Positions 20,292 to 64,000 of a stretch of DNA of 64,000 bases are shown here, piece after piece. This DNA comes from Hyperoplus lanceolatus. Taxonomy: Eukaryota > Chordata > Actinopteri > Uranoscopiformes > Ammodytidae. Position numbers and translations under genes: made by a program. Numbering within the stretch: position 1 is the stretch's first letter; every line of letters starts with the position of its first letter. The notes under the pieces are model-generated. The model ran no database searches and was not told the origin of the DNA. It saw only the letters and a list, made by a program, of their open reading frames with translations. The stretch is taken from contig CM049397.1 in assembly GCA_026929865.2 (NCBI GenBank), forward strand, positions 62,001-126,000. The letters are read 5' to 3'.

Positions 20292-21568
20292 CATTGACAT
20301 ATTACAGCCACCGTTTGTCGGTTAAGTAATGTTGTGGTCTACTACCGCCACCCTCTGGAAGGAGGATAGATGGTGAGCAGAACGTTTTAAATCATTAATT
20401 TTGTCGCCACAACGTGATTTATTTGTGATTTTCTTTTTTTTCCACTGCTGCCAAATACTGCCCAGACCCCTAGAGAATATTTTGGAAATGTTTGGAAGCA
20501 TGGGATGCAGTGGTGCCACACTTACACACAAACATACAAAAACACTCGCACACGGCTCCAATTATAGTAGTGGGATTGCCTAAAACCGAGAGACATGATC
20601 TTTTCATTAGTCAGTTAACTTAATTGCTACTATATTCTCACCTAGTCAAGCCAACAGTTTTGAGATTATTAACTGTTGAAGTCATTGCTACGTACAGATG
20701 CCTTGACACTCCTGCTATACAGTTCTTCTATATCACTGTTCAGACTTTTCTTATTAGTACCATACATAGGAAATGTTTTGATTTCCTCATTTTACGTCTG
20801 TACTGATTGTCATTCATTCATTTGTTAAAATATTAATGAGTTTTTATTGGCATCTGAAAACTGCGAAGACAATTAAATATACATTATAATAAGATATACA
20901 CTATAATATAGTAAAATAATTGATACTCTTGTAAATATTTAAAATGTATTATGCCGTTCACTATTTTCACCTTACCAGTAAAATACTTCTTTGAAATAAA
21001 AAAGTATAAATGAAGGAGTATTTTTAATGCATGTGAATAGTCTTGTTTCATATGATGTTTCATCTCTCTTTTCTTTACAGCAGTTTAAGTCAAATGTTTA
21101 CTTACTTTGGAGAAGTAATCAAACTAGTAAGAATTTTCCATGTCCAATGTTTTTACTTCAAATTGATAGTTTAAAATTAATACTAAGCGTACCTCATTAT
21201 CACTATCAACTAAAATTAAAAGTATTATATCAATTGTCATCATCTGCGTAGTCTGATGACAAATGTTTGCAGTAAGCCACAATCACTGGCAGCCATGTTA
21301 AATGGTCTGCTTCTTCTTGTTATGTTGAAATGAAACAGTATAAGTACATTAACATTGATGGTGAACGGTGTCACACCCACTGTGGCTGCAGGAACTATTG
21401 ACTGCATTAGTGAGACTTTTATTTTATACCTTTTAAAAGCATATAGATACCGTCCATTTCATGTTAAACTCTATCTCCTGTTGCACCTCACCTTGAACTC
21501 TTCCATGCCTCCCTGGTAGACACATTTAATAGTTTGAAAAAGTCCACATCAGAAGAAGAATCACTCAC
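20292..21568. other. Gene-free, AT-rich intron-like sequence
   Basis: Several short open frames (20322-21251) lack motifs. No terminal repeats were seen. By position this would be apba1 intron. Confidence 0.5.
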
Positions 21569-43066: not shown

Positions 43067-44326
43067 CAGTGGTTTTCAAACTGTGGGGAGTTATGGCAGG
43101 GGGGGCGCAGATGAATATGGGGAAAAAAATATAATAAAATAAATCTTTTTTTTTAGTTTGTGTTTTTGATATTAACATCATATTAAGCAAATGTAAGTTA
43201 TCATACAAAAAAAGGAATACAATGTTTTGGTCTAGATAGTTAATAGCCTAATAATTTAATTAGATCATCTGCCCAACCCAGAGGACCCTGCATAATATTT
43301 ATTTTTAAATTAAAAACAGTAGCTTTATAGTTTGATTTCTACAGGAATAACTTCCCACCCTTTGTGGTGTTGAAAACGAGGCATTATTAAACTGCAATGG
43401 GAAAGCTAAGTTAGTGTTATAGAAGCAAACGTTGGATGCTACATCCGAAGCTACATGTGCGCTAACGGCTAAAAATAACACTCAGACGATTTAAAACCAG
43501 TGAAAACAGTAGCTTCACAGTTTGATTTCTACAGGAATAACTTCCCACCCTTTGTGGTGTTAAAAGTGAGGCATTATTAAACTGCAATGGGAAAGCTAAG
43601 TTAGTGTATTAGAAGCTAACGTTGGGTGCTACTCCCGAAGCTACATGCTACACTAGGTAAATAACAGGCAAACAACCATTGAGGAGATTCCTTTTAGTTT
43701 CACCGATGGAATTACTACACAAGTAGCTCCCTAAGCTTTGTCTCGTTGTAAACGCGGCATTATTAAGACTGCTGTGACTAAGATAAATTAGTGGATTAAG
43801 AGCAAAATGCTTCTGTGTTGGTTTATGCAACACTGTGCATGGTTTGCTGTACAATGGGCATCTTGTCGCTTAGCGGGGAAAACAACATGGCTGTCGCTCG
43901 GAATATTTTTCAGAGGATCTTGGGGCCGTGGACCAATAAGAAATGGGGGGGGGGGGGTTATCATAGACTACTGCACGGTGGAAGTTTCTGGTTACTAATG
44001 TGGGGGGGAAGCATCATGAAGCGTGGACATATAAAGAAAATATGGGGAAGTGGCTTCTTCTCGCTATGACGACATATCGGGAAGAATTATGAACATTGGG
44101 GGGGAGGGGTGGGGGTTTCAGAAAGGGGGAGAGTGAGAAAAGGAGAGATTGTTATTTTTTTATATTTTGGCAGTCTCTAGGCACACCGTGGACCCATGTT
44201 AGAACACATTTAAAAAGTGCATTTAGCATAATATGGGACCTTTAAGAACTTTTTTTGGGGGGGGGGCTGAGCTGAAATTTTTTCTCTGTGGGGGGGGCTC
44301 ACTCTCTCACACTTTGAAAACCCCTG
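43067..44326. mobile_element. hAT element with 8-bp TSD CTTTAGAC (non-autonomous)
   Basis: It starts CAGTGGTTTTCAAACTGTGG and ends CACTTTGAAAACCCCTG, inverted ends typical of hAT. The 8-bp duplication CTTTAGAC is exact at 43059-43066 and 44327-44334. No transposase is present. Inside sits unrelated repeat sequence (43314-44245), including a 190-bp tandem duplication and a TTAA-bounded terminus, so it is itself a host for another insertion. Confidence 0.85.
43314..44245 (+). mobile_element. Nested repeat: 190-bp tandem units, CGCTTAGCGGGG motif, TTAA-type end
   Basis: AAACAGTAGCTT opens two tandem units of about 190 bp (43314-43503 and 43504-43693). TCTTGTCGCTTAGCGGGG and ACAACATGGCTGTCGCTCGG follow. 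The right end TAGCATAATATGGGACCTTTAA terminates in TTAA (44242-44245), as in piggyBac-type MITEs. The left end is not visible. The 43500-43890 part recurs inverted at 50943-51340. Confidence 0.6.
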
Positions 44327-49419: not shown

Positions 49420-50446
49420 TGTGAGAAGTCACATTACTGTAGACAGAAATAAAGTGTGGCAATACTTAATAATATTGGCGGCGGTGGTCCGGGACACAAA
49501 CTAGCCTAGCTGTCCAACTTCATTGTACAACTACCCCCGGGCAGAAATACCCTCATAAACTCTGGAAAATGAAGCGTGGGGGTTTGAATTGAGCACCGGA
49601 CCTTATAACCAGCTAGATTAAGATCCGCCGTTCCCTTTCTTTGGTGAATTAGGGACTAAGCAGCGGTGTTTTAGCGACGGGGAAAGATTCCAACGGCTTC
49701 CACTATCACCTAGCAACTCTTACGGCTACTTGCTGCAGTTGGTGTAGCGCTCACAACGTCAAAACCCTGTTCTGCCTGTAAACAGACGGACTACGGCTCT
49801 GACTACAGCGATAGGAGGTGGTGACATAAGTTCTCGAATGCTAAAAATTCTACTCGACCGCCGTAGCCTTGCCTCTCAACTACCGATGATAATGTTACCA
49901 GAGATAACACTACGTGGCTAGTTAACTCCGGTTAAGTTATCCCGTGAGCTCCTCGGGGGCTAAAATGTATGGTGTCTTGACATGCTGGTTAGAAAGCAAC
50001 ACACTATGTATATTCCTTTTGTCTTTAATAATTTTTGTGTGGCGTTTGCGGGTTTAGCCATTTCTCTGACAGTCTCTGGACGTGAAGACGTTCCATCAAA
50101 ATAAGTCCCCCCCCTGCACTATTTTGCAGGACACCGCTGCTGCTTCCCGGGGTTAGCCCCGCCCTAGATGATTGTGATTGGTTTAAACAAATACAAACAG
50201 GCTAGCCCAGTTTCCCCCGGTTTCCCCACCCGAATAGACGGCTCTAAACAGAGTGCTTCCAGACCATACTACTTGCTGTAGTTTGGTCTGGCTTTGCGAG
50301 ACTACATGTGGACAGACAGGTGTGAACACACGGACTGAGAGCTGGCCACTTGTGATCAGATTACCAAAATCACATCATAATCCCAGGTGGAAACAGGGCC
50401 TAAATTTTCTTCAGTTCTCAAGATATTGAGCTTTTCCGGAAGTGCC

Positions 50447-50540
50447 TGCGGGCTATCAACAAAACTAGCCTAGCCTTTCCATTTCAAACAGGAGTACTCT
50501 GAAACTAAATATTCTGCGCATGAAGAGGACACTCTGGACG
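50447..50540 (+). repeat. Dispersed repeat, second copy of 5786-5870
   Basis: AAACTAGCCTAGCC, CTGAAACTAAATATTCTG and GAAGAGGACACTCTGG occur in the same order as at 5786-5870. It lies right of the 47252-50402 element and is probably one half of its insertion target. Confidence 0.6.
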
Positions 50541-50616
50541 AGATGGACGTATTTTTGCTGTGGACAGGTTATGTGGACAGGTGTTGCACCGAAAGTTGTG
50601 ACCCATCAGAATGACA

Positions 50617-50633
50617 GACCCTAGAGGGCGCTG
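50617..50633 (+). promoter_or_regulatory. Weak CTCF-like motif
   Basis: GACCCTAGAGGGCGCTG fits the degenerate CTCF core but less well than the site at 41155. No supporting context. Confidence 0.25.
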
Positions 50634-50653
50634 TTTCTATTTATTAACTGATT

Positions 50654-50960
50654 TCAATCGACTGTTGGCCTATACCAACCCAGTCTCACAGTGGGACTAG
50701 ATATTTGACGTCGGCTCTGGTTTTCATAGGTTTCCAGACGTTCTATTGCCTTCTGCAGTTGAAATTCCATGGCTCTCATCCGGGGTGCTGATGCCGCCGA
50801 CACATCCTTGAGGTCCGAGACCCGCGGTTCAACTGTCCCCATCCTCTGTATTAGACTGTCAAGTTTCTCCAAGACTTCGTTAAGTGGCTTGATTATGTTG
50901 GCTAGTTTGCGGTCTAACATCTGTTCTATGTTTTCCGAGCGACAGCCATGTTGTTTTCCC
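50654..50960 (-). pseudogene. L1-type ORF1 N-terminal fragment (coiled coil)
   Basis: The minus strand reads MLDRKLANIIKPLNEVLEKL, DSLIQRMGTVEPRVSDL and QKAIERLETYENQSRRQ. This is a heptad-rich coiled coil followed by the ENQSRRxN-type motif that precedes the RRM in L1 ORF1 proteins. The RRM is absent. Upstream MAVARK lies one frame off, suggesting a frameshift near 50930. It is fused to the CGCTTAGCGGGG repeat, which may be its 5' UTR. Confidence 0.6.
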
Positions 50961-51664
50961 CGCTAAGCGACAAGATGCCCGTAGTACAGCAAACCATGCA
51001 GAGTGTTGCATAAACCAACACAGATGCATTCTGCTCATAATCCACTAATTTATCTTAATCACAGCAGTCTTAATAATGCCGCGTTTATAACGAGAAAGTT
51101 TAGGGAACTACTTGTGTAGTAATTCCATTGGTGAAACTAAAAGGAATCTCCTCAATGGTTGTTTGCCTGTTATTTACCTAGTGTAGCATGTAGCTTCGGG
51201 AGTAGCACCCAACGTTTGCTTCTATTGCATTAACTTAGCTTTCCCATTGCAGTTTAATAATGCCTCGTTTTTAACACCACAAAGGGTGGGAAGTTATTCC
51301 TGTAGAAATCAAACTTTGAAGCTACTGTTTTCACTTGTTTTAATCATGTCATGTCAAACTGTTCAAAGTATGGCTTCGCGCCGGGTAAACACTGTGTTCG
51401 CAGTCACGCAGTGTCTCTCTAGTATCACGAGAGCACGGCAGAGACAGTGGGAGGGCCCGGCAGAGAGGTGGGAGGGGCCAGCCAGATCGCAGGCTGCAGA
51501 CACCAATATAGGTCATCCGGAGACCAGAGGAACATCAGGGTATAGAGGCTTGCTACAATAAACGATCTTAACAGGTTTTTCAGCAAACATTTAAAAAAAT
51601 AAGTATTAGGGACTACTTAGACCATATTAAATTGACAGCAAAGTGCATAATATGTGAGCTTTAA
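50943..51664 (-). mobile_element. Inverted copy of the 43314-44245 repeat family
   Basis: 50943-51340 is the reverse complement of about 43500-43890 with modest divergence (for example GGGAAGTTATTCCTGTAGAA vs TTCTACAGGAATAACTTCCC). The other end carries GCATAATATGTGAGCTTTAA with TTAA at 51661-51664. It appears as a single unit here, not the two tandem units of the other copy. Confidence 0.65.
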
Positions 51665-52150
51665 AGTTACAGGACAGTGTTTATATCTCTGTGTGGGGTG
51701 CATCACATGTTATTAATATCCCAAAATAGACAACTTCTTTCAAGTCAAACAAACACACCGCTTATATAGGTGTTTTCATCTCTCACCAGTGACCCCTAAT
51801 CTTTAAGAACTGTCTGCTCTGCAACTCTGGTAATAGAGGCTATTCAAATATACCACATTCCTCCATTTAGAAGAAACTTCTTTTCCCAAAAACGAGATGG
51901 AACCATACATATTTGAATGGCCCATAAGAAACACCTATCAAACACAGAACACTTTTACATTTTATAAGTTATGTAGAATACAATGCATAGATGTACGCAT
52001 TACTGCAGTAAACTATATTTTATTAGGACCAACAATGCAAATGCATCATACACTAAACGATGTAGATATTGAGACAGGGAGAACAGAGAGCACCCTTCAA
52101 ATGACAATGGCACCTGATAACAGCTGCTTCTCTCACGGGCTGTATCTCGA
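51665..52150. other. Gene-free stretch
   Basis: A plus-strand frame 51897-52184 has no recognised domain. The left boundary of the Harbinger element is expected near 52140 but no terminal repeat was matched. Confidence 0.4.
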
Positions 52151-52344
52151 TTCAGGGGTTGCGGTCTACGAAGGCTGCATTTGAAGACCGATTGCGTCAT
52201 AGCGGCGTGCAAAGGTTGTTCCATTTGCAAGGCTCCTCATATGCAGCCGTGAAATGCAGCTTTCGTTTCACGGTTTTGAAGGCTGCAACAGATGGATCCT
52301 TCGCGGCCCTATAAATCCCAAGATTAATTTCGGTTTCGTCAGAG

Positions 52345-53994
52345 ATGGCATCTCAAGACGAATTACCAGCGGCAGCATCAGCATGTTACGCCTTCAAATG
52401 TAAGTATTGGGTTTCAGTAGCCTAACTCAAATAACTAACGATACAAATGTAAAAAAAAAAAAAAAGTAACCTCATAAAACCTCTATGTCCTTCAAAATAA
52501 TTGGTTAAGTAAGGTAACGTTCTAATAATGTTAGTGACGCTAACTTTTAGGAAAATGTATTAAAAAAACCACACTTTCCGAGCTTTATATCTTGACATAT
52601 ATTTCTTGTCATTTATCTAGATTTTACTTTGTTAATAGGAAGTTAAGAGACACTTCAAAATCATTAAGAAATATCCCAAAAGGTTTAGAATTCCTCCACT
52701 GACCGCAACGGAAAACACCTCCAACACCACCAACTCCCTGCCCTGTCCCGTTTGGTTAACTTGTTAAAAACGTTGGCATTTTTACACAGCTAACTTGGTT
52801 ATTTTGCTATTTAAGCTGCTTTTGTTTGATAGTGTGAAGCAAAACTAATTTTAACGTGTGCTTTTGGTTTAGGGAGCCAGGAGCATACGGCTCAACTAAT
52901 TAAGTTGAGGGGGGAGAAGGACGGCCTCTTCACCGGGGCCAAAAACTCTGCTTCTGTGTCTTGGAGGTAAGGAAACACTAGTTTATTTACAATGTCAGTT
53001 AGTTTATAACAATTATTCACAATAGGCCATTTGTAATATTTACATTTGACCATCTTGTAAAGGTTACAGTTAAATAAGTCCTCATTAAGGACACACACAA
53101 GATCCCCCAGAAATCGTTTACTTGAATGTCTTATTTTGAGTTATAAAGAGAAACACAACAAGGTCACAACTTACATCCCTGTGAAAGCACTATAAAAACA
53201 CACAACAAAGAAAAAGGGTATTGTCCCAGCTACTAGTGGTCTTATTATCATGGGCTTTGTATAGAATCAGGGCTAATTTAACTGTAACCGTTACAAGAAC
53301 AGCCTATACAAAGATCAACTTGTAACCTTTACAATAAGGTTAAATGTAGTCATACAAATGGGCTATTGTTAACATGGGTTATTAACATGATTGTGAATGT
53401 TACCCCTTTATTTCGTTTTATCTCTGTGATTAGGAGTATACTGGAGGAAATGGGCCTGGAGGGGAAAGTCACGCCTCTTCAGGCCAAAAAAAAATGGGAT
53501 ATCCTCAAAAAGAAATATAAAGTACGTTAACATAATTTTAAATGTACATTATTTGTTTTAACCATGCAAAACACTTTAGCTGATTTTTTGTTGTTGTTGT
53601 TAACTGCCACGATTGATTTCCTCTGCCTTAGGATTGCAAGTGTCCAGCGTCGGGCGAGGGGGTGGACTGCAAGTCCACGGCTGCCAATTGGCCCTGGTTT
53701 GTCCTCATGGATGAGGTATTAGGACAGAGGCATTCGACAAATCCCCCTGTCCTAATTGCCTCCATCCCTGAGGACAAACCCGGGCAGGATGAAGAGGAGG
53801 ACGAGCCCAGCCAGCCAGGGCCCAGCCAGCCAGGGCCCAGCCGATCGCGGAAGAGGGACCGGGAGGACGAGCTGCTGGACCTCCTGAAAGAGGACATGAG
53901 GCAGCAGAGGGAGGCGTAGGAGAGGCGAGCTCAGGAGAGCAATGCCAGGATGGATAGGCTCTTCTCCATCCTGGAAAAAATTGTTGACAAATAA
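52345..53994 (+). pseudogene. Harbinger Myb/SANT-like DNA-binding protein gene, 4 exons
   Basis: Exons 52345-52399, 52873-52966, 53434-53521 and 53632-53994 join in phase at GT..AG borders. The product is the DNA-binding partner that Harbinger transposases need for nuclear import and target binding. It reads MASQDELPAAASACYAFKWS, TAQLIKLRGEKDGLFTGAKN, SILEEMGLEGKVTPLQAKKK and WDILKKKYKDCK, a trihelix/MADF-like fold with spaced Trp (W..W..W). ANWPWFVLMDEVLGQRHSTN, an acidic Ser/Pro linker and RKRDREDELLDLLKEDM follow. A TAG at 53917-53919 (expected GAG; context QREA-x-ERRAQES) interrupts the C-terminal helix, which ends SILEKIVDK at 53994. It lacks only this codon to be open, so inactivation is recent. 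Confidence 0.8.
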
Positions 53995-54160
53995 TTTTAA
54001 ATATTTGTTGTTAATTTAATTATTTATTATTTATTTACATGTAATTTTATTTTGGCTGTGTCATATTATTTTATAGTTGTTTTTTCCTAACAATGTAGGA
54101 TATTTTCATTTACATTATTTATGTTCAGTATTTAATATGTTTTTACTTTTTATATGTGTA

Positions 54161-54166
54161 AATAAA
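54161..54166 (+). terminator. Poly(A) signal AATAAA of the Myb-like gene
   Basis: AATAAA, 167 bp after the stop and followed by a T-rich stretch (GTTGTTTTTTC), is the natural 3' end of the plus-strand Harbinger gene. Confidence 0.5.
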
Positions 54167-54552
54167 AGTTGTTTTTTCTGATATTCAGGATACCATTATT
54201 ATTCTCCATATCACACAGGTAATTTCTGTAATATCTAGTTAGCACAAGAAACTCCAACATATATTTTTTTTGGTATGGATAATCTGATTTCAGGCCTAAC
54301 CTCGAGCATTAGAGAATTTAAGATTTGCTCCCTTGTGTATCTTCTCCCTCATAAACAGACAGATTGTTATAATTGTTATACTGTATATTCTAGACAGATC
54401 GACACACTTTAGGCAAATCAATGAACACTGGGTGCCTGTCGGCATGTTGGAACGATTATAGCAGGAGGCAGATCTTATACATTATCGCCCAACCTGCCAC
54501 CTCTACCATTGTTGCGTAAGAATCGAATGACAAATTTTTGTAAATGTTATGT

Positions 54553-54558
54553 TTTATT
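54553..54558 (-). terminator. Poly(A) signal of the Harbinger transposase gene
   Basis: The minus strand reads AATAAAACATAAC about 370 bp after the last coding exon. The stretch between (54560-54930) includes an open minus-strand frame (54547-54783) of unknown meaning, perhaps 3' UTR. Confidence 0.4.
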
Positions 54559-55151
54559 ATATAAATAAAAATTAATAATAAAAAAAGAAGCTGAGCAGGG
54601 AGCCCCTGGTGGTGCTGCTGGACCAGGATGGGCTGCCACATTGTGACCCTGGTGTCTGTCTCCTGTCAGTGGGACATCATCTGGGGTGGTCTCCAGAGTG
54701 CGTTGGTAGATGCCTCTCTCCACTGTCCACCGCATCGTCGCTGTAGTGGGTTTGCAGGGCTGAATTGACGGCTGCCATGTCACTAAGGTTTTTGGAAAAG
54801 GTCAAGAATAAGAGTGCATACAAAATAATACTTCTTTCTTCTTTTTTTGACAAAAGAAATCTCTGGACAAATTACAACAAAACATTTTAAATTAATAGAA
54901 ATCAAAGCTTTACAATTCTTTAACTTGCCTGTTATAAATACTGATGGTCAAGGGGGACCTCCTCCAGGGCAGACACCTCTGCCGACAGCTGGTCCCGCCA
55001 GTGAGCACCACTGGCTGCCTCCAAACCGTTCTCCCCTCATCCTCTGCCACATCCTCCTCAGGCTCATCCTCCTCCTCTGGGGCCATGATATCATGGAGTA
55101 TGGCACATGCTGTTATGACCTGAAATGGTAAAAATAAAATTTAAATAAATA

Positions 55152-55163
55152 AATATATATGTA

Positions 55164-55201
<38 letters not shown>
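55152..55201. repeat. (TA)n microsatellite in the last transposase intron
   Basis: About 20 TA units next to the acceptor of the last exon. The (TA)n expansion lies 30-80 bases from the 3' splice site on the minus strand. Confidence 0.9.
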
Positions 55202-55204
<3 letters not shown>

Positions 55205-56001
55205 CTCCTGATAAAAGAATTAATACTTTTTGATTTACTCTTCAAAATTTAAATAAAGTCCTGTTGAGTGATTACTTACGTGAGGTACTAAGATGTGGTG
55301 CACCTCCAGCGCTTGCACGAAGATGGCCCGGAACCTGGTTTTCATCATCCCAAAGGCACGCTCTATAATGGAGCGTGCCCTGGAGTGATGGGAGTTAAAG
55401 CGCTGGGCTCCCACACCTCATAGTGGCTGCTTGTATGGAGTGATGAGGGGTAGTGGGTGTTGGAGACACGGGTTCCCGCCGTCGGCCAGGATAAAGTGCC
55501 CTGGAGGAGGGTAGAGTGACCTCCGGTACAGGGGGCTCTGCCGGAGGACTTTAGCGTCGTGGACTGACCCAGGCCAGCCCACATAAGTATCTATAAAGCG
55601 ACCCTGATGGTCACAAACAGCTTGCAGGATAATGGAAGGGAACAACTTTCTGTTCCTGTAGCAGTGACCATCAGGGCCGCTCGGTGGCTTTATTCTGACA
55701 TGGCAGCCGTCAATTGCTCCAGCTACTCTGGCGAAGGCTTGATGTCGCCCCAGCCCTGCAAGCCCACGGGTCACTGCCTCCAGGTCCTCTGGGGTCTTCG
55801 GGAGGTAGATGACCTTAAGATAGGATAAGATCGGGGGTTAAAATGACATCGTAGAGGAAGCACGTAGTTCCAGGAGGCTCCGGTGATACTTTTCAGTTAT
55901 CCGATTACTTTACACATTTGCGTTGCAGAATTGTCATTTTTGGCGGTGGGAGTAACTCTGTAATGAGTTTGGACAACTATTTCTTTAAAATAACTGACAA
56001 C

Positions 56002-56617
56002 ATGACCAGAACCAGGCCAAAAAAGAAGCTCACAGGGCAGAGCGGGGAAGCTAACACCTTGGAAATGGCCGAGTGTGAAGATGCTAGCTGCAGCAGCACT
56101 GACACAGATATTTTCCAAGCAATGGATAAACTATCTGAAAACATCACCAAAGTCATCGACGCTAAAATAAACACGGTGCTTGCGGCTATAAGAGACCAAA
56201 CAACCCAAATTCAGGCTCTGGGAACACGAGTCGGCGAGGCGGAAGATAGAATTGCTGGCATAGAGACCACAACGGAGTCGTTGCAGGCCAAAGTCACAAG
56301 TCTGGAAAAACAAGTGAGCGGCATGTTGGAGCACATTGATGACTTGGATAATTGTGGGCGCAGATGTAATATTCGGGTTGTGGGACTGCACGCACTGGAC
56401 CACGCATCACTGGACCACGCATCTCTTTCTTCAACAACTACTCGGCAGCAGTGGTCAGGAAGCGCAAGGCATTTGATTCCGTGAAAGAGTGATTAAAGAA
56501 GATGGGTATCGTTTACGCATTGATCTACCCCGCCACGCTGAAATGGACGGTCAACGGGACGGAGAAGAGGTTTGACACACCGGAGGCTGCTGCGGCGTTT
56601 GTGGACTCTCTCGGTTA
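56002..56617 (+). pseudogene. L1-B ORF1, RRM region deleted
   Basis: Likely start MTRTRPKKKLTGQSGEA at 56002 (the open frame begins at 55918). A coiled coil follows: IRDQTTQIQALGTRVGEAED and TTESLQAKVTSLEKQVSGML. DDLDNCGRRCNIRVVGL opens the RRM, which is mostly missing: after LHALDHASLDHASL the frame shifts to the C-terminal domain NNYSAAVVRKRKAFDSVKE. A TGA follows, then LKKMGIVYALIYPATLKW and TPEAAAAFVDSLG at 56615. The short direct repeat LDHAS-LDHAS marks the deletion edge. RNA binding would be lost. Confidence 0.75.
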
Positions 56618-57045
56618 AGATGACAGGCTCTTCATCATTCTGACGGAAAAGTACTCTCTTTCTCCGTCCTACACTCTGATTATTGGACCGATATAACAGT
56701 ATGTAAGTACTCATGTGGCCGTGTTATCGATCTTTTTTATTTTATTTCTTTATAACGCACAATGTGGACTAAAGTTACATCTCTGTGTGAGGAGTGGGAC
56801 TTGCATTTATTCTATGGTTAGGCACGAGATAGCGCAAGGTGGAGCTGTCGGCTTTTGGCTGAGAGCAAAAGAAGGATTGTTATTCCCTGCATGTTTAACA
56901 AGGATTTCCCCCTTTCTTTATGGGGTTTGTTCTGTATGTGTTGTGTTTTTGTACTTGTTTTACCGTTTCTATGCAGCTCAGTCTTTTTTATTTTTCAGTT
57001 TTTTAAAGGGAATGTGCCAAGGTATTACAATAGGAATTTGAAGTA

Positions 57046-57743
57046 GTGGCAAATAAGCTATGGGTTTGCACCTGGAATATACGAGGGATTCATAACCCCA
57101 TAAAACGTAGAAAAGTACTTACCTTCTTAAAAAGGGAAAATATAGATATTGCACTGGTGCAAGAAACCCACCTTGATGACACAGAGCATTTAAAATTACA
57201 ACAGGGTATGTTTGGACAAGTATATTTTTCGTTTTTTATACTATACTTATTCGACGTACTTTGCCCTTTAAAATGGTGAAATGCCTCAAAGATAAAAATG
57301 GTCGTTATGTTATAGTTAAAGGTAGTTTACAAGGACAAGAGATTTTAATAATGAATGTTTATTATCCACCTGCGCACCCATTAGACTTTATCACTAAAGT
57401 GTTTGTGGACCTTGCAGAAATGAGAGCTGATACAGTAATTGTGGGTGGTGATTTTAATTGTATGTTAAATCCACTCATAGATAGGTTTCCTCATAGAGCT
57501 AAAGCTCCTTCTCCCCAAGCAAAAGCTCGCACTGCAATTTGTAACGATCTTGGATTTGATGATGTTTGGAGAAGTCTCCACCCTGCTAACAAAGAATATA
57601 CTTTCTTTTCTGCACCTCATGGTTGTCAGACCAGAATTGACTATTTTTTTCTGCCAAGAGCTCAATTGCAGTTAGTTTTAACTTGTCACATAGGTAATAT
57701 TGTTATATCTGATCATGCAAGTGATCTGTGCAAGTGGATATAA
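57046..57743 (+). pseudogene. L1-B ORF2: AP endonuclease in two frames
   Basis: 57046-57240 reads MANKLWVCTWNIRGIHNP and IDIALVQETHLDDTEHL (WNIRG; catalytic Glu in QETHL). After a frameshift with loss of a few residues near 57240-57280, 57261-57735 gives MVKCLKDKNGRYVIVKG, LIMNVYYPPAHPLDF, VIVGGDFNCMLNPLIDRF, TRIDYFFLPRAQL and NIVISDHA. All catalytic blocks of the L1 endonuclease are present apart from the junction. A second shift near 57715 leads to the RT N-terminus (57728-58069 frame). Confidence 0.85.
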
Positions 57744-59538
57744 AACTTCCAGTTTCGTCATATCAGTCTCGACAATGGCGACTTAACACTGTTATTCTTA
57801 AAGATAATACTTTTACATCCTACTTTTCCACTGAATTTAGAATTTTTCTTTCTATTAATTCACAATCAACAGATAATCCCTCACTTTTATGGGAGACCTG
57901 CAAAGCATATGCAAGCGGTTTGATCATATCATTTTCTGCCACTAAGAGGCACCAAAACTTAGAGAAGCAAAAATCTCTACAGGCTAAATTATCAGTTAAA
58001 GAAAAAGCTTATATTAGTTCACCAACTCCTATTTTGGGAAAGAGATATCTGCTCTCAGATCAGCTATAAATTGTCAACTTACTAAAGAGGCAGAAAAAAA
58101 CATTAGATATACCAAACAGAGGTTTTATGAGCACGGTGACAAACCAGGGAAGTGTCTTGCATACCTAGCTAAAAAAAGAGTAGAATCCCAGTTTATAGCA
58201 GCAATTATGAAGGACAATGGCGTTAGAGTGTATGAAAATAAATTGATAAATGACTGCTTTAAGGAATACTATACAAATGTATACGCCTCAGAACAGACAA
58301 ATGATGCACCTCAACTAATGGAAGGCTTTTTTACACAGATCGATCTCCCAACAATATCAGAAGAACAAAAATGTTTACTAGATGGTCCAATCACTAGAGA
58401 TGAAGTATTGAATGCTATTAAAAACGGTTCCGAATATTATAAAGAGTTTAAAGACCTGCTTATAGGACCACTACTTCAAATGTTTAATGATTCGATTTCA
58501 ACTACAGAATTACCACAAACTCTTAAGGAGGCTAACATATCACTTTTATTGAAAAAGGGGAAGTGTCCTGAGTCCTGTTCCTCCTATAGACCCATAGCCC
58601 TCTTGAATGTAGATCAAAAGTTGCTTTCCAAAATACTAGCCACTCGTCTAGAGGACATTTTGCCCACCCTAATTAAAGAAGACCAAACTGGTTTTATAAA
58701 AGGCAGGAATTCAACTGATAATATTAGACGTCTTTTCAATGTTATCCAGGCCTTTGAACAAAAATCCATGACCAGTCTTGTGCTTTCTCTGGACGCGGAG
58801 AAAGCGTTTGACCGAGTTGAATGGTCATTCTTATTTTACACATTAGAAAAATTTGGACTTGGTAGGAATTTTATAAAATGGGTTAGAATTCTATACAGTG
58901 ACCCTCAAACTGCAGTTTTAACTAATGGGTTAAGATCAAAATGCTTTCCTACACATAGAGGTACAAGACAGGGTTGTCCCTTGTCTCCTCTCCTGTTTGC
59001 CCTGGCCATAGAGCCATTGGCTGTGGCCATTAGAATGGATCCCTCTATATATGGCTTACAGGTTGGGGAAAGATGTCATAAAATAACTCTGTATGCTGAT
59101 GACGTCCTTGTGTTTTTATGTCACCCTGAGACCTCAGTCCCGGCCCTCCTTAAGATGATTAACGTATTTAGTACATTTTCTGGATACAAGATTAACTTAA
59201 ACAAATCAGAGGCTATGCCCTTGGGTAGTCTTAAAACAATACCTAATACTATACCACCCTTTCCTTTCAAATGGTCGCCCTCTGGTTTTGTCTATTTAGG
59301 TATTTTTATCACCCCATCATTTAGTCAGATGTACAAATCCAACTTTGTCCCATTATTTGGGAAAATAAGACAAGATCTAGAACGTTGGGATTCACTCCCT
59401 GTTTCTTGGTTAGGAAGAATAGCTCTGATTAAAATGAATGTGTTACCCATATTACTTTATCCCGTTCAAATGATTCCTATACTGTTTTCGAATAGGGCCT
59501 TAAAAGATTTGAATAGCTGGCTCAGTTCATTTATTTAG
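57744..59538 (+). pseudogene. L1-B ORF2: reverse transcriptase lacking motif 0
   Basis: The linker frame 57728-58069 has LLWETCKAYASGLIISFSAT. A shift near 58030-58080 leads to RRFYEHGDK-type sequence and then the long frame from 58207. RT blocks: SISLLLKK-like NISLLLKKGKCPESCSSYRP, IALLNVDQKLLSKILATRLE, DQTGFIKGRNSTDNIRRLF, LSLDAEKAFDRVEWSFL, GTRQGCPLSPLLFALAIEPL and catalytic YADDVLVFL (59092-59103). Between AIK and YYKEFKDLL the NKAPGPDG motif seen in L1-A is missing: 12 residues fewer, in frame. The frame stops at a TAG at 59536-59538. Confidence 0.85.
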
Positions 59539-60643
59539 AGTAAACGCAGACCTAGATTAAAAATGGCAGTTTTGCAGCTGCCAAGTTCCATGGGCGGCCT
59601 TGATTTGCCAAACGTTAAAATATATCAGCTTAGTGCTCATTTGAGGTTTATATCTGAGTGGTTAAAGAATTCGACATCTTCTATTTGGCTAGACATTGAA
59701 TCATCTTTGTCAAAATGTAAATTACAAGATTTGTTATTCTTTAAGAATTTTAAGAACATAAGAGATAACTGTACCAATCCAATAACAATAAATGCTCTGA
59801 AGGCTTGGCGATCAGCCCGTCGTCTAGAAGGGAGGCTCAAATTGACTTCCATGTTTACTCCAATAAATAATAATCTTGATTTTTCACCGGGAATGATGGA
59901 CTCATTCTTCTGGCAATGGCATGACAAAGGCATAACCAAACTTGGAGACTTGTTTTCAGATAACGGTTTAATGTCATTTGAACAATTGATAAAGAAATAC
60001 CAACTTCCAAAACAAGATTTTTTCCGTTTCTTACAAATAAGGCATTACATTACTAAGAGTACAACCCTTATTGAACACCCTGAGATTTCTGCTGTTGAGA
60101 AAGTGCTGTTTCAACCTTCAGGAAAGGTGTCTGTCTACTACTGACACACAGAGGATCAAGGGTGTGTGTGAGAAGGAATTATCAGTTAATATTGATGACG
60201 AGACATGGATGGATATTTGGAGTTATGCTAAAAAGATTTCCATCTGTACTCGGGCAAAAGCAATCCAGTTAAAAATAATACATAGGATTCATATATCTCC
60301 TAATCGCAGGCATTCTTTCAACCCAGCACTTTCTCCTCTGTGTCTTAAATGTAAAATAGAAATAGGTACCTTAACTCATTGTCTATGGTCATGTCATAAA
60401 TTACGGAAATACTGGTCTGACATTTTAAGTGAAATTGAAAAAATATTTGGTATGGAATTAGAAATGGATCCAATGTGTTTGCTATTAGGTCTACCAAGTA
60501 GAAGTATACCTTCTAAATCTGGCAAAAGGTTATACAACATTCTAACTTTTGCTGCTAGAAAAAATATATTATTACAGTGGATTAATGATAAGAGTCCCTC
60601 TGTTAATGGCTGGTGGAATATTTTACTGGAGTTGATCCTGTAG
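59539..60643 (+). pseudogene. L1-B ORF2: C-terminal region with CCHC zinc knuckle
   Basis: After the TAG the protein continues SKRRPRLKMAVLQLPSSMGG, LDLPNVKIYQLSAHLRF. A frameshift near 60110-60135 then leads to TQRIKGVCEKELSVNID, FNPALSPLCLKCKIEIGT and LTHCLWSCHKLRKYWSDIL. CLKC..THCLWSC is a CX2CX8HX4C knuckle, the usual end of L1/Tx1-like ORF2 proteins. The frame ends LLELIL at 60641. A 3' UTR of about 320 bp follows with the end ATTGTTAAAAAA. Confidence 0.8.
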
Positions 60644-61700
60644 AATATCTCACAAATATTATACATCACAAAGTGGACCAATTCTACAAAATCTGGCATC
60701 CCTATTTGAACTATCTTGGACCGGACCATTCTTTGATAATTGCACAAGGAGTCTCCTAAACCTGAACATGTGAACGGTGACTTTTGATCGGCCTGAAATG
60801 TGAACTGTTTCCTGTGGCCTCAACCTAATCTCTGTTGACTTGAGCTGTACTTTGTATTTGTTTATTTGTTTTTGTTTGTAAGTATTGTTTGTATATTTGT
60901 GGTGCTTCTTTGTAATGTTTTTGTTGAAAATAAGAAAAGCCAATAAATATATTGTTAAAAAAAAGATAGGATAAGATAAACTGTATTAATCCCACACATA
61001 GGAAAATGCACTTGTCACAGCAACTCAAGAGTCAAAGGTATGAGTGATGAAATCAATAAATATATACTTTGTGGCAAATGGCCACAGTGACCCTGTGGAC
61101 GATGTGGTGGACAGTAGAGTGAGGAATCGCAAACACCCTGGAAACCACCCTGTATGATGCCCCACTGGCCAACCAGAACAGGAACACCAGGGTCTCGATT
61201 GTGGCACCCCATCCGTGCCTCCGCTCCTGGTGGAGGATGTCCAGCAGCACCGCCAGGGCCTCCCTGCTCAGCCGGAAATCGGCTCTGGTGTCCTGGCCAT
61301 TAAAATATTGATCCAGGACCGGAACATTTAAATTGACTCTGCAGTACAGGGGTCTGGTCTGGTTCAGGGAAAAGAAAAAGGTTTAAACAATTGCTGGATA
61401 TTAAGTGTGGAGAGCTTAGATAAGGCTTAAATATATCTAGGCTACCTGATAACTGTTAGATATGAAAGTAACCCAACCTGTTTTAGCTGATTAATGACAA
61501 AACTATTTTAGATTTTTTCAATAGCCTAAAGTAAGGTTGGTACTATTTTAAACATGTAGGCTAATATAGGCCTATAACATATTACATTAGGCTATATGTA
61601 TTATATATAGCCGGAGAAAAATTACCCGCCGGCTCCGGCGGCGAATCCTCTCCAACTCCTGCAGCTCTAACTCAAATATTATATTATATATTATATATTT

Positions 61701-62057
61701 ACCAAGCCAATTACAGGGCACACACTAATAACTTTTTTATTGAAGGTAGAATTCTCAAATTACGTGATGTGGTAAATTACCACACAGTACAAATTATTTA
61801 CAAGGCTTCAAAATAAAAGCCTTCCTAACAGTTTACAAGTAATGTTTGAAGACAGAGAAGTTTCGCATGATTTAAGAAGAAAAGATAAATTCACTGAGAA
61901 AAATATACGGACCACACTTAAATCCTTTTCGATTTCTGTAAATGCTATTAAGCTGTGGAATGGACTTGATGAAGTTGTCACATGGAGTTGCAGTTTGCGC
62001 AATTTCAAAGCAAATTATGTTTCAAAAATTATTGAAAATTACAGACTAATAACCTGA
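61701..62057 (+). pseudogene. LINE ORF2 C-terminal remnant
   Basis: Frames QANYRAHTNNFFIEGRIL and MFEDREVSHDLRRKDKFTEK, FSISVNAIKLWNGLDEV and IIENYRLIT (stop at 62055) are joined by a frameshift near 61810. FSISVNxIKLWN is the conserved C-terminal box of CR1/I-type LINE ORF2 proteins. It lies directly at the broken right end of the Harbinger element. The family was not resolved. Confidence 0.5.
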
Positions 62058-62335
62058 GCACAATGTCAATGTCACTTTCATAACAATATTGTAACGAATA
62101 ATACAGGCCAGCAGACAGACTTGTTTTTGAATACTTTTGCAGAAGTGTTTAGACTACCAGTTAAGAAATGGAACAGGCCAAATATAAGGCCACTTCACAC
62201 TTTATACACTTGGCATTGTCACAGAAAAACTGAACTGTGCTGAACTGATCTTACAAGCTGAAGCAATTAGATTAAAATTGACAGTGTATTGGACTGCAGA
62301 TTCTTAAAAAAACAAATAAATAAATGTATATGTAT
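62058..62335. other. Gene-free stretch
   Basis: Probably the 3' UTR of the preceding LINE remnant. No motif was found. Confidence 0.35.
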
Positions 62336-62368
62336 ATATATGTACATATGTATATATATGTATTTTAT

Positions 62369-62428
<60 letters not shown>
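62336..62428. repeat. (TA)n / (TATG)n microsatellite
   Basis: Imperfect TATG/TACA units pass into about 30 TA units. The Ile/Tyr-repeat frames on both strands are its translations. Confidence 0.95.
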
Positions 62429-62432
<4 letters not shown>

Positions 62433-62482
62433 GTTTTTTGTTTTAATTTTATTTTCTGTAACAGTAACTGTGTATCTGAATC

Positions 62483-63806
62483 CAGGGCCGTCGTATAGGG
62501 GGTAAAGGTTATGACGATTATAAGGGCCCACAGCCAGCTAGGGCCCACACAGCCCCCAGTAGAATATATGACAAAATTATTATGCATACAGTGAACTAAT
62601 ATATAATCATACGAATGATTCCGAATTTAAACAAAGCCACAAGTCATACAATATTCTAATTTTAATAATTTCAATAACCCCCTTGGCCCCTTCTTAAAAA
62701 ATGGTTTGGTCCACCCCGCGGTTCGTTCTTCCTCATTGGAATTAAGTGAGCGCGAGCGAACTCCAGCAGGCCCCCAAAAAAGCTCGCACCAGAAAAGAGT
62801 TGAGAAGGAGGTCAGGAGTAGGATATGAGCAGCAGAGCAGGGGATCAAAAACTTTTTTTCTAAGAATGGTGAGAGTAAAACTACAGAGGGAGGCTGAAAC
62901 AATTAGCCTACTACTTGTTCATTCATAACATTACCTTGGACGGGGCGCAGGCTGGACCCTACGTTAGCTGTCATCTGGCCGCGCTACACTGATCAAGTCA
63001 CCAGTTCATAAAAAAAATAAAAAATAAAAAATAAAGTCGCCAACTATAACTGAACGTTACTACTACAGTGACTGTGTTTTACACATATTACTGTGTGACA
63101 GTGCTCCAGTATGCGCCCATTCAGAGGCTGCATTGAATTGTACCATGACGCATTCAACTTCTACTCGGTAATTATGAGCATCTGACGATGGTCAGTTACG
63201 TTCAGGGCCGTCGAACTGCGGTCAGGCTTGGGGGGCCCAAGGCAGAGGGGGGCTGCACCCCAAAAAAAAACTTGTTTTTTAATTTTTTAATTTTTTTTAC
63301 TGGCTCAGTATAGGCCCCTGATCTTTGAAGGCCCCAACATTTTTTTATTTAGGAAGATAAATATACATTATCTATAAATTATTCCAGAAAATATTACTAA
63401 ATAGGAAACAGTTGATTTACCCTTAGTTTTCTTCTCAAAGTGCACCAGATTGATGAATTTTATATTTTACATTATAAAAAAAATCTTCCGGGGGAGCATT
63501 CCCCCGGACCACCCTAGAAGGTCCAGGGTCCCCAACACAGTCTCCCAAATTCCTGTGAGAAACACGGTGTGTGTGCATGGTTATTAAGAGTCTTAGACCA
63601 GGGGTTGTGTTCAAGTACGCGTAATGATCTGGTCATTCGTCAATAGAAACATTGTGTTGTTATCTGGCTCGGAGAGGGACCAGTCACTCATACGTTTTGG
63701 ACTATAGACAAACATAGCTTTTACATGTTTGTATTGTAGGACCGCCTCTCAGAGGGCCCATCAGGACTTCCTGTATAGGGGCCCAGAATTTGGTGCAACG
63801 CCCCTG
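62483..63806. mobile_element. hAT element with 8-bp TSD TCTGAATC
   Basis: It starts CAGGGCCGTCGTATAGGGGG and ends GGTGCAACGCCCCTG. Flanks are TCTGAATC at 62475-62482 and 63807-63814, an exact 8-bp duplication. A second CAGGGCCGTCG with a GGGGGGCCCAAGG segment at 63203 suggests a related copy nested or duplicated inside. A short coding-like stretch at 62746-62928 includes KTFFL and a basic/coiled sequence, perhaps the N-terminus of a lost transposase. The rest is non-coding. Confidence 0.75.
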
Positions 63807-63814
63807 TCTGAATC

Positions 63815-64000
63815 CGAATTTGATGAAAATGGGGGCGGGACCTGATAAGCCTTTGGCTTCTTCCGTCTCCCTTCGGACAACACAAAGTATGATGTATGAA
63901 TATTTGCAAGAGAAAATTGTGTATTGTGTGGAATTGTCCGAAAGAATAATAAATAAATAAATAACTCTAATAAAATAAAAAATAACAAAACAGCAACGTG
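63815..64000. other. Gene-free window end
   Basis: AT-rich sequence with an (AATA)n stretch near 63945-63965. No feature is supported. Confidence 0.4.

Follow-up and report, generated by a model that had tools for sequence, protein, structure and literature searches.

A 5.1-kb L1 retrotransposon nested, most probably, in a short intron of a decayed PIF/Harbinger transposase gene of Hyperoplus lanceolatus

Introduction

How does a long interspersed nuclear element (LINE) come to lie inside the gene of another transposon without breaking its reading frame, and does such sparing mean anything? The question is raised by a 64,000-nucleotide stretch of Hyperoplus lanceolatus DNA (assembly GCA_026929865.2, contig CM049397.1, positions 62,001 to 126,000; hereafter the window), in which an L1 retrotransposon separates exons 2 and 3 of a PIF/Harbinger transposase gene. 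A model that had seen the letters alone (hereafter the sequence-only reading) had placed this L1 in a 108-bp intron of the gene. With a probability that we put at about 0.93, the locus is indeed an L1 nested in a short intron of the decayed transposase gene of a two-gene teleost PIF/Harbinger, which is near the copies found in cod; it was correctly seen, and it is an ordinary nested insertion.

Results

The two exons that flank the L1 have lengths divisible by three (291 nt for exon 2 and 534 nt for exon 3; Table 1), and they join in phase 0 (..AICHK/VIYLPK..) with the GT..AG borders of a spliceosomal intron. Exon 2 is preceded by the acceptor CCTGAACCAG/ACC, the intron runs from the donor CACAAA/GTATAT to the acceptor TATCTTAAG/GTCATC, and exon 3 ends at a further donor, CTCAC/GTAAGT. 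The interval between the exons measures 5254 nt, and subtraction of the 5146 nt of the L1 plus one copy of its 15-bp target-site duplication (TSD) leaves 108. The lengths, borders, phase and intron size given by the sequence-only reading were all recomputed and stand.

The assignment of the insert to the L1 clade comes from its reverse transcriptase (RT), whose best match among solved structures of the PDB is the LINE-1 ORF2 protein 8sxt (7.7e-93; the next, R2, reaches 8.2e-21), from an endonuclease domain (PF03372, Exo_endo_phos, 5.6e-07) upstream of the RT at 57180-57743, and from the TSD and the A-rich 3' end. An ORF1-like open reading frame (ORF) lies close to the L1 5' end, and ORF2, which encodes the endonuclease and the RT, is split among several frames, so that the L1 is not coding-competent in its present form. 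The two copies of the TSD are identical, with no extension on either side, and the chance of such a match in one fixed register is 9e-10. The L1 ends in an A-run, and its insertion point on the + strand, CTT/AAGATAGG, fits the preference of the L1 endonuclease for TT/AAAA.

Does the intron exist without the L1? Three lists of relatives were examined, comprising 120 of 576 matches (search with the spliced reading), 120 of 1387 and 28 of 28. The named organisms of the first list are ray-finned fish, except for 'nr' labels of Mustela on rows that are also labelled Oreochromis, and the exon 2/3 junction is continuous in all 110 of its relatives that could be judged (10 of the best 120 could not). 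The best listed relative, from Gadus chalcogrammus, is 85% identical. Two unannotated ORFs, P0092 (28 member sequences from 10 contigs) and P0104, start with MWDNKVDLILSYLK followed by VIHLPKTPEDL, which corresponds to the end of the intron running into exon 3, free of L1. The window reads ILSYLK/VIYLPKTPEDL across the TSD and the acceptor, preceded by L1 sequence, and across the acceptor P0092 agrees with it at 16 of 17 residues, including 6 in the intron (1.6e-7). At the opposite end, P0121, P0123, P0136 and P0137 cross the same donor from exon 2 into the 5' half of the intron; the peptide LTLELL of P0121, P0123 and P0137 is also encoded by the window intron, in a different frame, and on the far side of the L1 this intron reads TGTGGGATTAATACAG, by eye compatible with the WDNK of a relative. 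Among the other 168 relatives compared, each of the six intron-bearing ORFs matches a Gadus protein best, with identities of 98% (P0104, P0121, P0136), 97% (P0137), 93% (P0123) and 86% (P0092, over an alignment that covers its retained second intron). Furthermore, P0092 and the G. chalcogrammus protein P0001 share an identical exon 3, and the annotated model of P0001 has no intervening sequence. The L1-free intron ends together with the P0001 junction indicate that close relatives have this interval as an intron and that the L1 came later; the L1-free copies of the intron anticipated by the earlier annotation are thus present in Gadus-like relatives, at the peptide level.

The TSD is the pyrimidine tract that precedes the acceptor, as the sequence-only reading had recognized, but the duplication of the 3' splice site deduced from it was rejected, since only the 15-nt tract is doubled and one single AG stands beside exon 3. 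The former branch-site region, whose TTAAT would stand 26 nt from the exon if the L1 were removed, now lies 5.1 kb upstream. In antisense, the start of the L1 supplies a TTAAC at 24 nt from the exon, without an intervening AG before the acceptor, and a CTTAT is found 12 nt from the exon with and without the L1; on these motifs, splicing across the L1 would be possible on paper.

Several points weigh against the nesting of the L1 in an intron. The empty site consists of translated peptides and not of DNA (a search of viral and genome contigs for DNA of the relatives gave no stretch encoding one), and the whole intron is spanned by no single relative. The six ORFs with the intron carry no species label in their source. 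The gene models P0064, P0065, P0116 and P0132 join differently at the junction, and removal of the interval from transcripts would be indicated only by the annotated protein P0001. Finally, the interval contains seven AATAAA signals on the gene strand, so that splicing across the L1 may also fail.

The transposase belongs to the DDE_Tnp_4 type of PIF/Harbinger, as judged from PF13359 and from HARBI1-like relatives with up to 85% identity among the matches listed; no solved structure matched it at E 0.1. The acidic residues of exon 3 are kept in IDGCH, LADGG and IERAFG, which we take to be the DDE motifs. The gene is nevertheless decayed. At the in-frame TGA (55418-55420), 58 of the best 120 of 576 aligned relatives have Q and 33 have R; a single step separates TGA from CGA, but not from CAA or CAG, and the frequent R is compatible with a CGA-type change, Q being commoner. 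This stop and a frame lesion in the last exon had both been announced, and both are present. The first exon had been declared lost: its 5' part is indeed missing, the exon being cut at about 61673 (relatives such as P0002 read ..RRRRVIYLRLCQDHRQTRPLYCRIN.. in the corresponding part), but some 66 nt of it are kept. The announced list of lesions was also incomplete, as it omitted two in-frame losses relative to the relatives: EEV, three residues, towards the end of exon 2, and in exon 4 some seven residues, NICLGAD, a loss read by eye.

Beside the truncated exon 1, the segment 61690-62440 contains a + strand ORF (61776-62057) that resembles by eye the C-terminal end of a LINE RT, without a Pfam match, followed by an AT-rich stretch; it is possibly a second, 5'-truncated LINE insertion.

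The coding sequence did escape the insertion itself, as had been claimed: the L1 lies in the intron, the exon letters are untouched and the intron is L1-free in Gadus-like copies. The further claim, that the locus illustrates how a LINE can land in a transposon gene without breaking its frame, deserves little weight. Between 52100 (left bound, set by eye) and 61672, the L1-free element comprises 4427 bases, 1677 coding and 2750 (62%) non-coding; a random insertion would miss the coding sequence in about 62% of cases and fall in this particular intron in about 2.4%. With this non-coding share and a copy that is otherwise broken, we reject the sparing of the frame as meaningful, and, the transposase copy being dead, no selection need be invoked.

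The element carries a second, Myb/SANT-like gene, identified by PF13837 (8.3e-12 on its spliced reading as far as the first stop) as the companion gene of PIF/Harbinger and arranged tail to tail with the transposase. A Myb-like gene plus a transposase is the content described as typical for Harbinger in PMC9179366, and its presence makes the element a two-gene Harbinger; the word 'orientation' is absent from that paper, and the tail-to-tail order rests on the sequence here. In P0010 (Parambassis), the C-terminal tail shows a 64% match over 55 aa to the antisense reading of the Myb-like gene at 53631-53795, which suggests that this gene order is common to another teleost. Within the last Myb-like exon, 53691-53785 is palindrome-like, with an 82% match over 97 columns to its reverse complement. 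Between the two genes, at 54590-54785 on the + strand, lies an inverted, shortened and intronless transposase-derived copy (71% over 178 columns against exon 2; 20 exact bases against exon 3). Its reverse strand is matched at the C-terminal ends of P0009, from Centroberyx, and P0074, from Notolabrus, so that the copy may be an ancient component common to the present Harbinger family. As to terminal inverted repeats and a 3-bp TSD of the Harbinger, 51900-52500 matched only itself within the window, and the element is cut short on its transposase side. No RNA family reached its gathering score in 50000-64000. Elsewhere in the window, 50933-51343 and 43313-43903 form an inverted pair, with pieces at 95% (413 columns) and 94% (145 columns).

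Table 1. Positions in the window of the parts of the Harbinger element and of the nested L1
Feature	Position	Strand	Basis or remark
Exon 1 remnant, ~66 nt, reads ELELQELERIRRRSRRVIFLRL	61608..61673	-	5' part gone, without clear donor; by-eye similarity to N-terminal part of P0002 and P0026
Exon 2, helix-turn-helix part, 291 nt	61068..61358	-	weak Pfam matches under curated cut-off; EEV missing relative to relatives
Intron 5' part (90 nt of 108), donor GTATAT	60978..61067	-	similar sequence read into by P0121, P0123, P0136, P0137
TSD copy at L1 3' end	60963..60977	-	exact 15-bp match
L1 retrotransposon, 5131 bp, antisense to transposase gene	55832..60962	+	RT and endonuclease matches, TSDs
TSD copy at L1 5' end, pyrimidine tract preceding acceptor	55817..55831	-	reads ILSYL(K), as P0092
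Sole intron acceptor AAG	55814..55816	-	sequence borders
Exon 3, DDE_Tnp_4, 534 nt	55280..55813	-	PF13359 1.4e-17 on its ORF; in-frame TGA
Intron between exons 3 and 4, GTAAGT .. TTTCAG	55120..55279	-	similar intron read through in P0092, P0104
Exon 4, frame change and ~7 residues lost relative to relatives	54932..55119	-	alignment and translation
Myb/SANT-like companion gene, exons 52345-52399, 52873-52966, 53434-53521, 53632-53993	52345..53993	+	GT..AG introns; one in-frame TAG

Discussion

The history that we propose starts from what is observed, namely the anatomy of the locus, the TSD and the L1-free relatives of the same intron as peptides. A two-gene teleost PIF/Harbinger close to the cod copies would have had exons 2 and 3 of its transposase separated by a short intron. 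An L1 would then have inserted antisense into the pyrimidine tract of this intron, presumably by target-primed reverse transcription, thereby making the 15-bp TSD and leaving the exon letters and both splice dinucleotides intact. Splicing could still use the branch-like TTAAC of the L1 end at 24 nt, in place of the TTAAT at 26 nt. As the Harbinger copy is decayed in other ways and the L1 is also broken, neither is likely to do anything now.

Is the intron itself young? This would be a deeper reading of the locus and not an alternative to the nesting: the 108-bp intron would have been gained recently through the entry, at an AAG/GT of the transposase gene, of a short mobile sequence of older date, possibly the truncated tail of a retrotransposon, the L1 landing inside it afterwards. 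We hold this for possible at somewhat less than even odds, and for slightly less probable still its explicit form, in which a cod-lineage Harbinger transposase gained a spliceosomal intron when a short tail of a retrotransposon inserted at a proto-splice site, before the L1 nested there. The 31 unannotated ORFs of the three lists (those marked ena, lgn or jgi only) comprise 6 with the intron, all of which match Gadus proteins best, 18 uninterrupted at the junction, 5 that do not cover it and 2 that exit into other sequence. Five of the 18 (P0040, P0085, P0153, P0069, P0091) still read into intron 2 and are therefore probably genomic and without intron 1; however, three of these five come from the source 'lgn', which we guess to be possibly RNA assemblies, and several of the 18 match weakly, with 4 to 8 residues out of 13-16 around the junction. 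In a tree of exon 3 (51 rows, namely the window and 50 of 174 relatives chosen by hand, P0084 being dropped as too short), the intronless P0040, P0153 and P0069 fall inside and P0085 and P0091 outside the clade of the window and cod rows, an arrangement that would favour gain over repeated loss. Against this, the backbone of the tree is unresolved, the window and cod rows are not grouped with support, and the intron labels cluster no better than shuffled ones (155 and 175 of 500 as low). The borders AAA/GT and AAG/GT could represent a short TSD, but repeats of AAG/GT are expected from the splice consensus alone.

As to the source, the 3' part of the intron may resemble the tail of a common teleost retrotransposon, and a literature search for strings of that tail gave no paper containing them. 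The 64-kb window has no clear second copy of the intron; the best match, 22 bases at 20752-20773 (E 0.08), is without the TATCTTATC tail and may or may not be kin to the intron. Were the gain true, a mobile gene of a vertebrate would have acquired an intron, caught at two successive stages, and mobile genes, with their many copies and datable insertions, could offer a way to follow the appearance of introns in vertebrates. PMC9860276 describes introns made by transposable elements (TEs) with splice sites recruited from TSDs, and states that no pattern of such gain is seen in species such as parasites or vertebrates. Intron turnover is reported to be higher in teleosts in PMC12357937, and PMC3257199 cites earlier studies that found intron gain extremely rare, under a title that speaks of extensive gain in the placental ancestor.

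It is improbable that the interval is no intron and that two successive insertions broke the gene, with GT..AG borders by coincidence. Many relatives have no insert at the junction, which speaks for it, but the NCBI protein P0001, although it may be a mere prediction, joins the exons exactly at the borders, P0092 with its identical exon 3 has an intervening sequence, and phase and borders fit an intron. More improbable still is that the transposase continues to be spliced and expressed with the L1 inside, the L1 being selected to sit silently in the intron, since the intact splice dinucleotides and the well-placed TTAAC are met by a stop codon, a frame change, in-frame losses and a truncated exon 1.

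In conclusion, the nested insertion provides one further example of an L1 in an intron, antisense, within a dead transposon. The locus was undescribed in the titles and abstract openings returned by our literature searches, which is not proof of its absence from print. With the teleost Harbingers (PIF/Harbinger; Etchegaray et al. 2022, PMC9179366) it shares a DDE_Tnp_4 transposase and a Myb-like gene in a single element, and close relatives of the present copy occur, among the matches listed, in Gadus, Merluccius and many further teleosts; it differs from them by the truncated 5' end of its transposase, the stop, the frame change and the L1 inside. The L1, for its part, resembles the L1-clade non-LTR retrotransposons in its LINE-1 ORF2-type endonuclease and RT, its A-run 3' end and its 15-bp TSD; its reading frames are broken, and no feature is unusual for the clade. 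And could the intron be compared with the TE-derived introns known as Introners (PMC9860276)? It is like them a short intron seen in one lineage, apparently missing in several relatives and bordered by AAA/GT and AAG/GT, and unlike them it shows no multi-copy family here.

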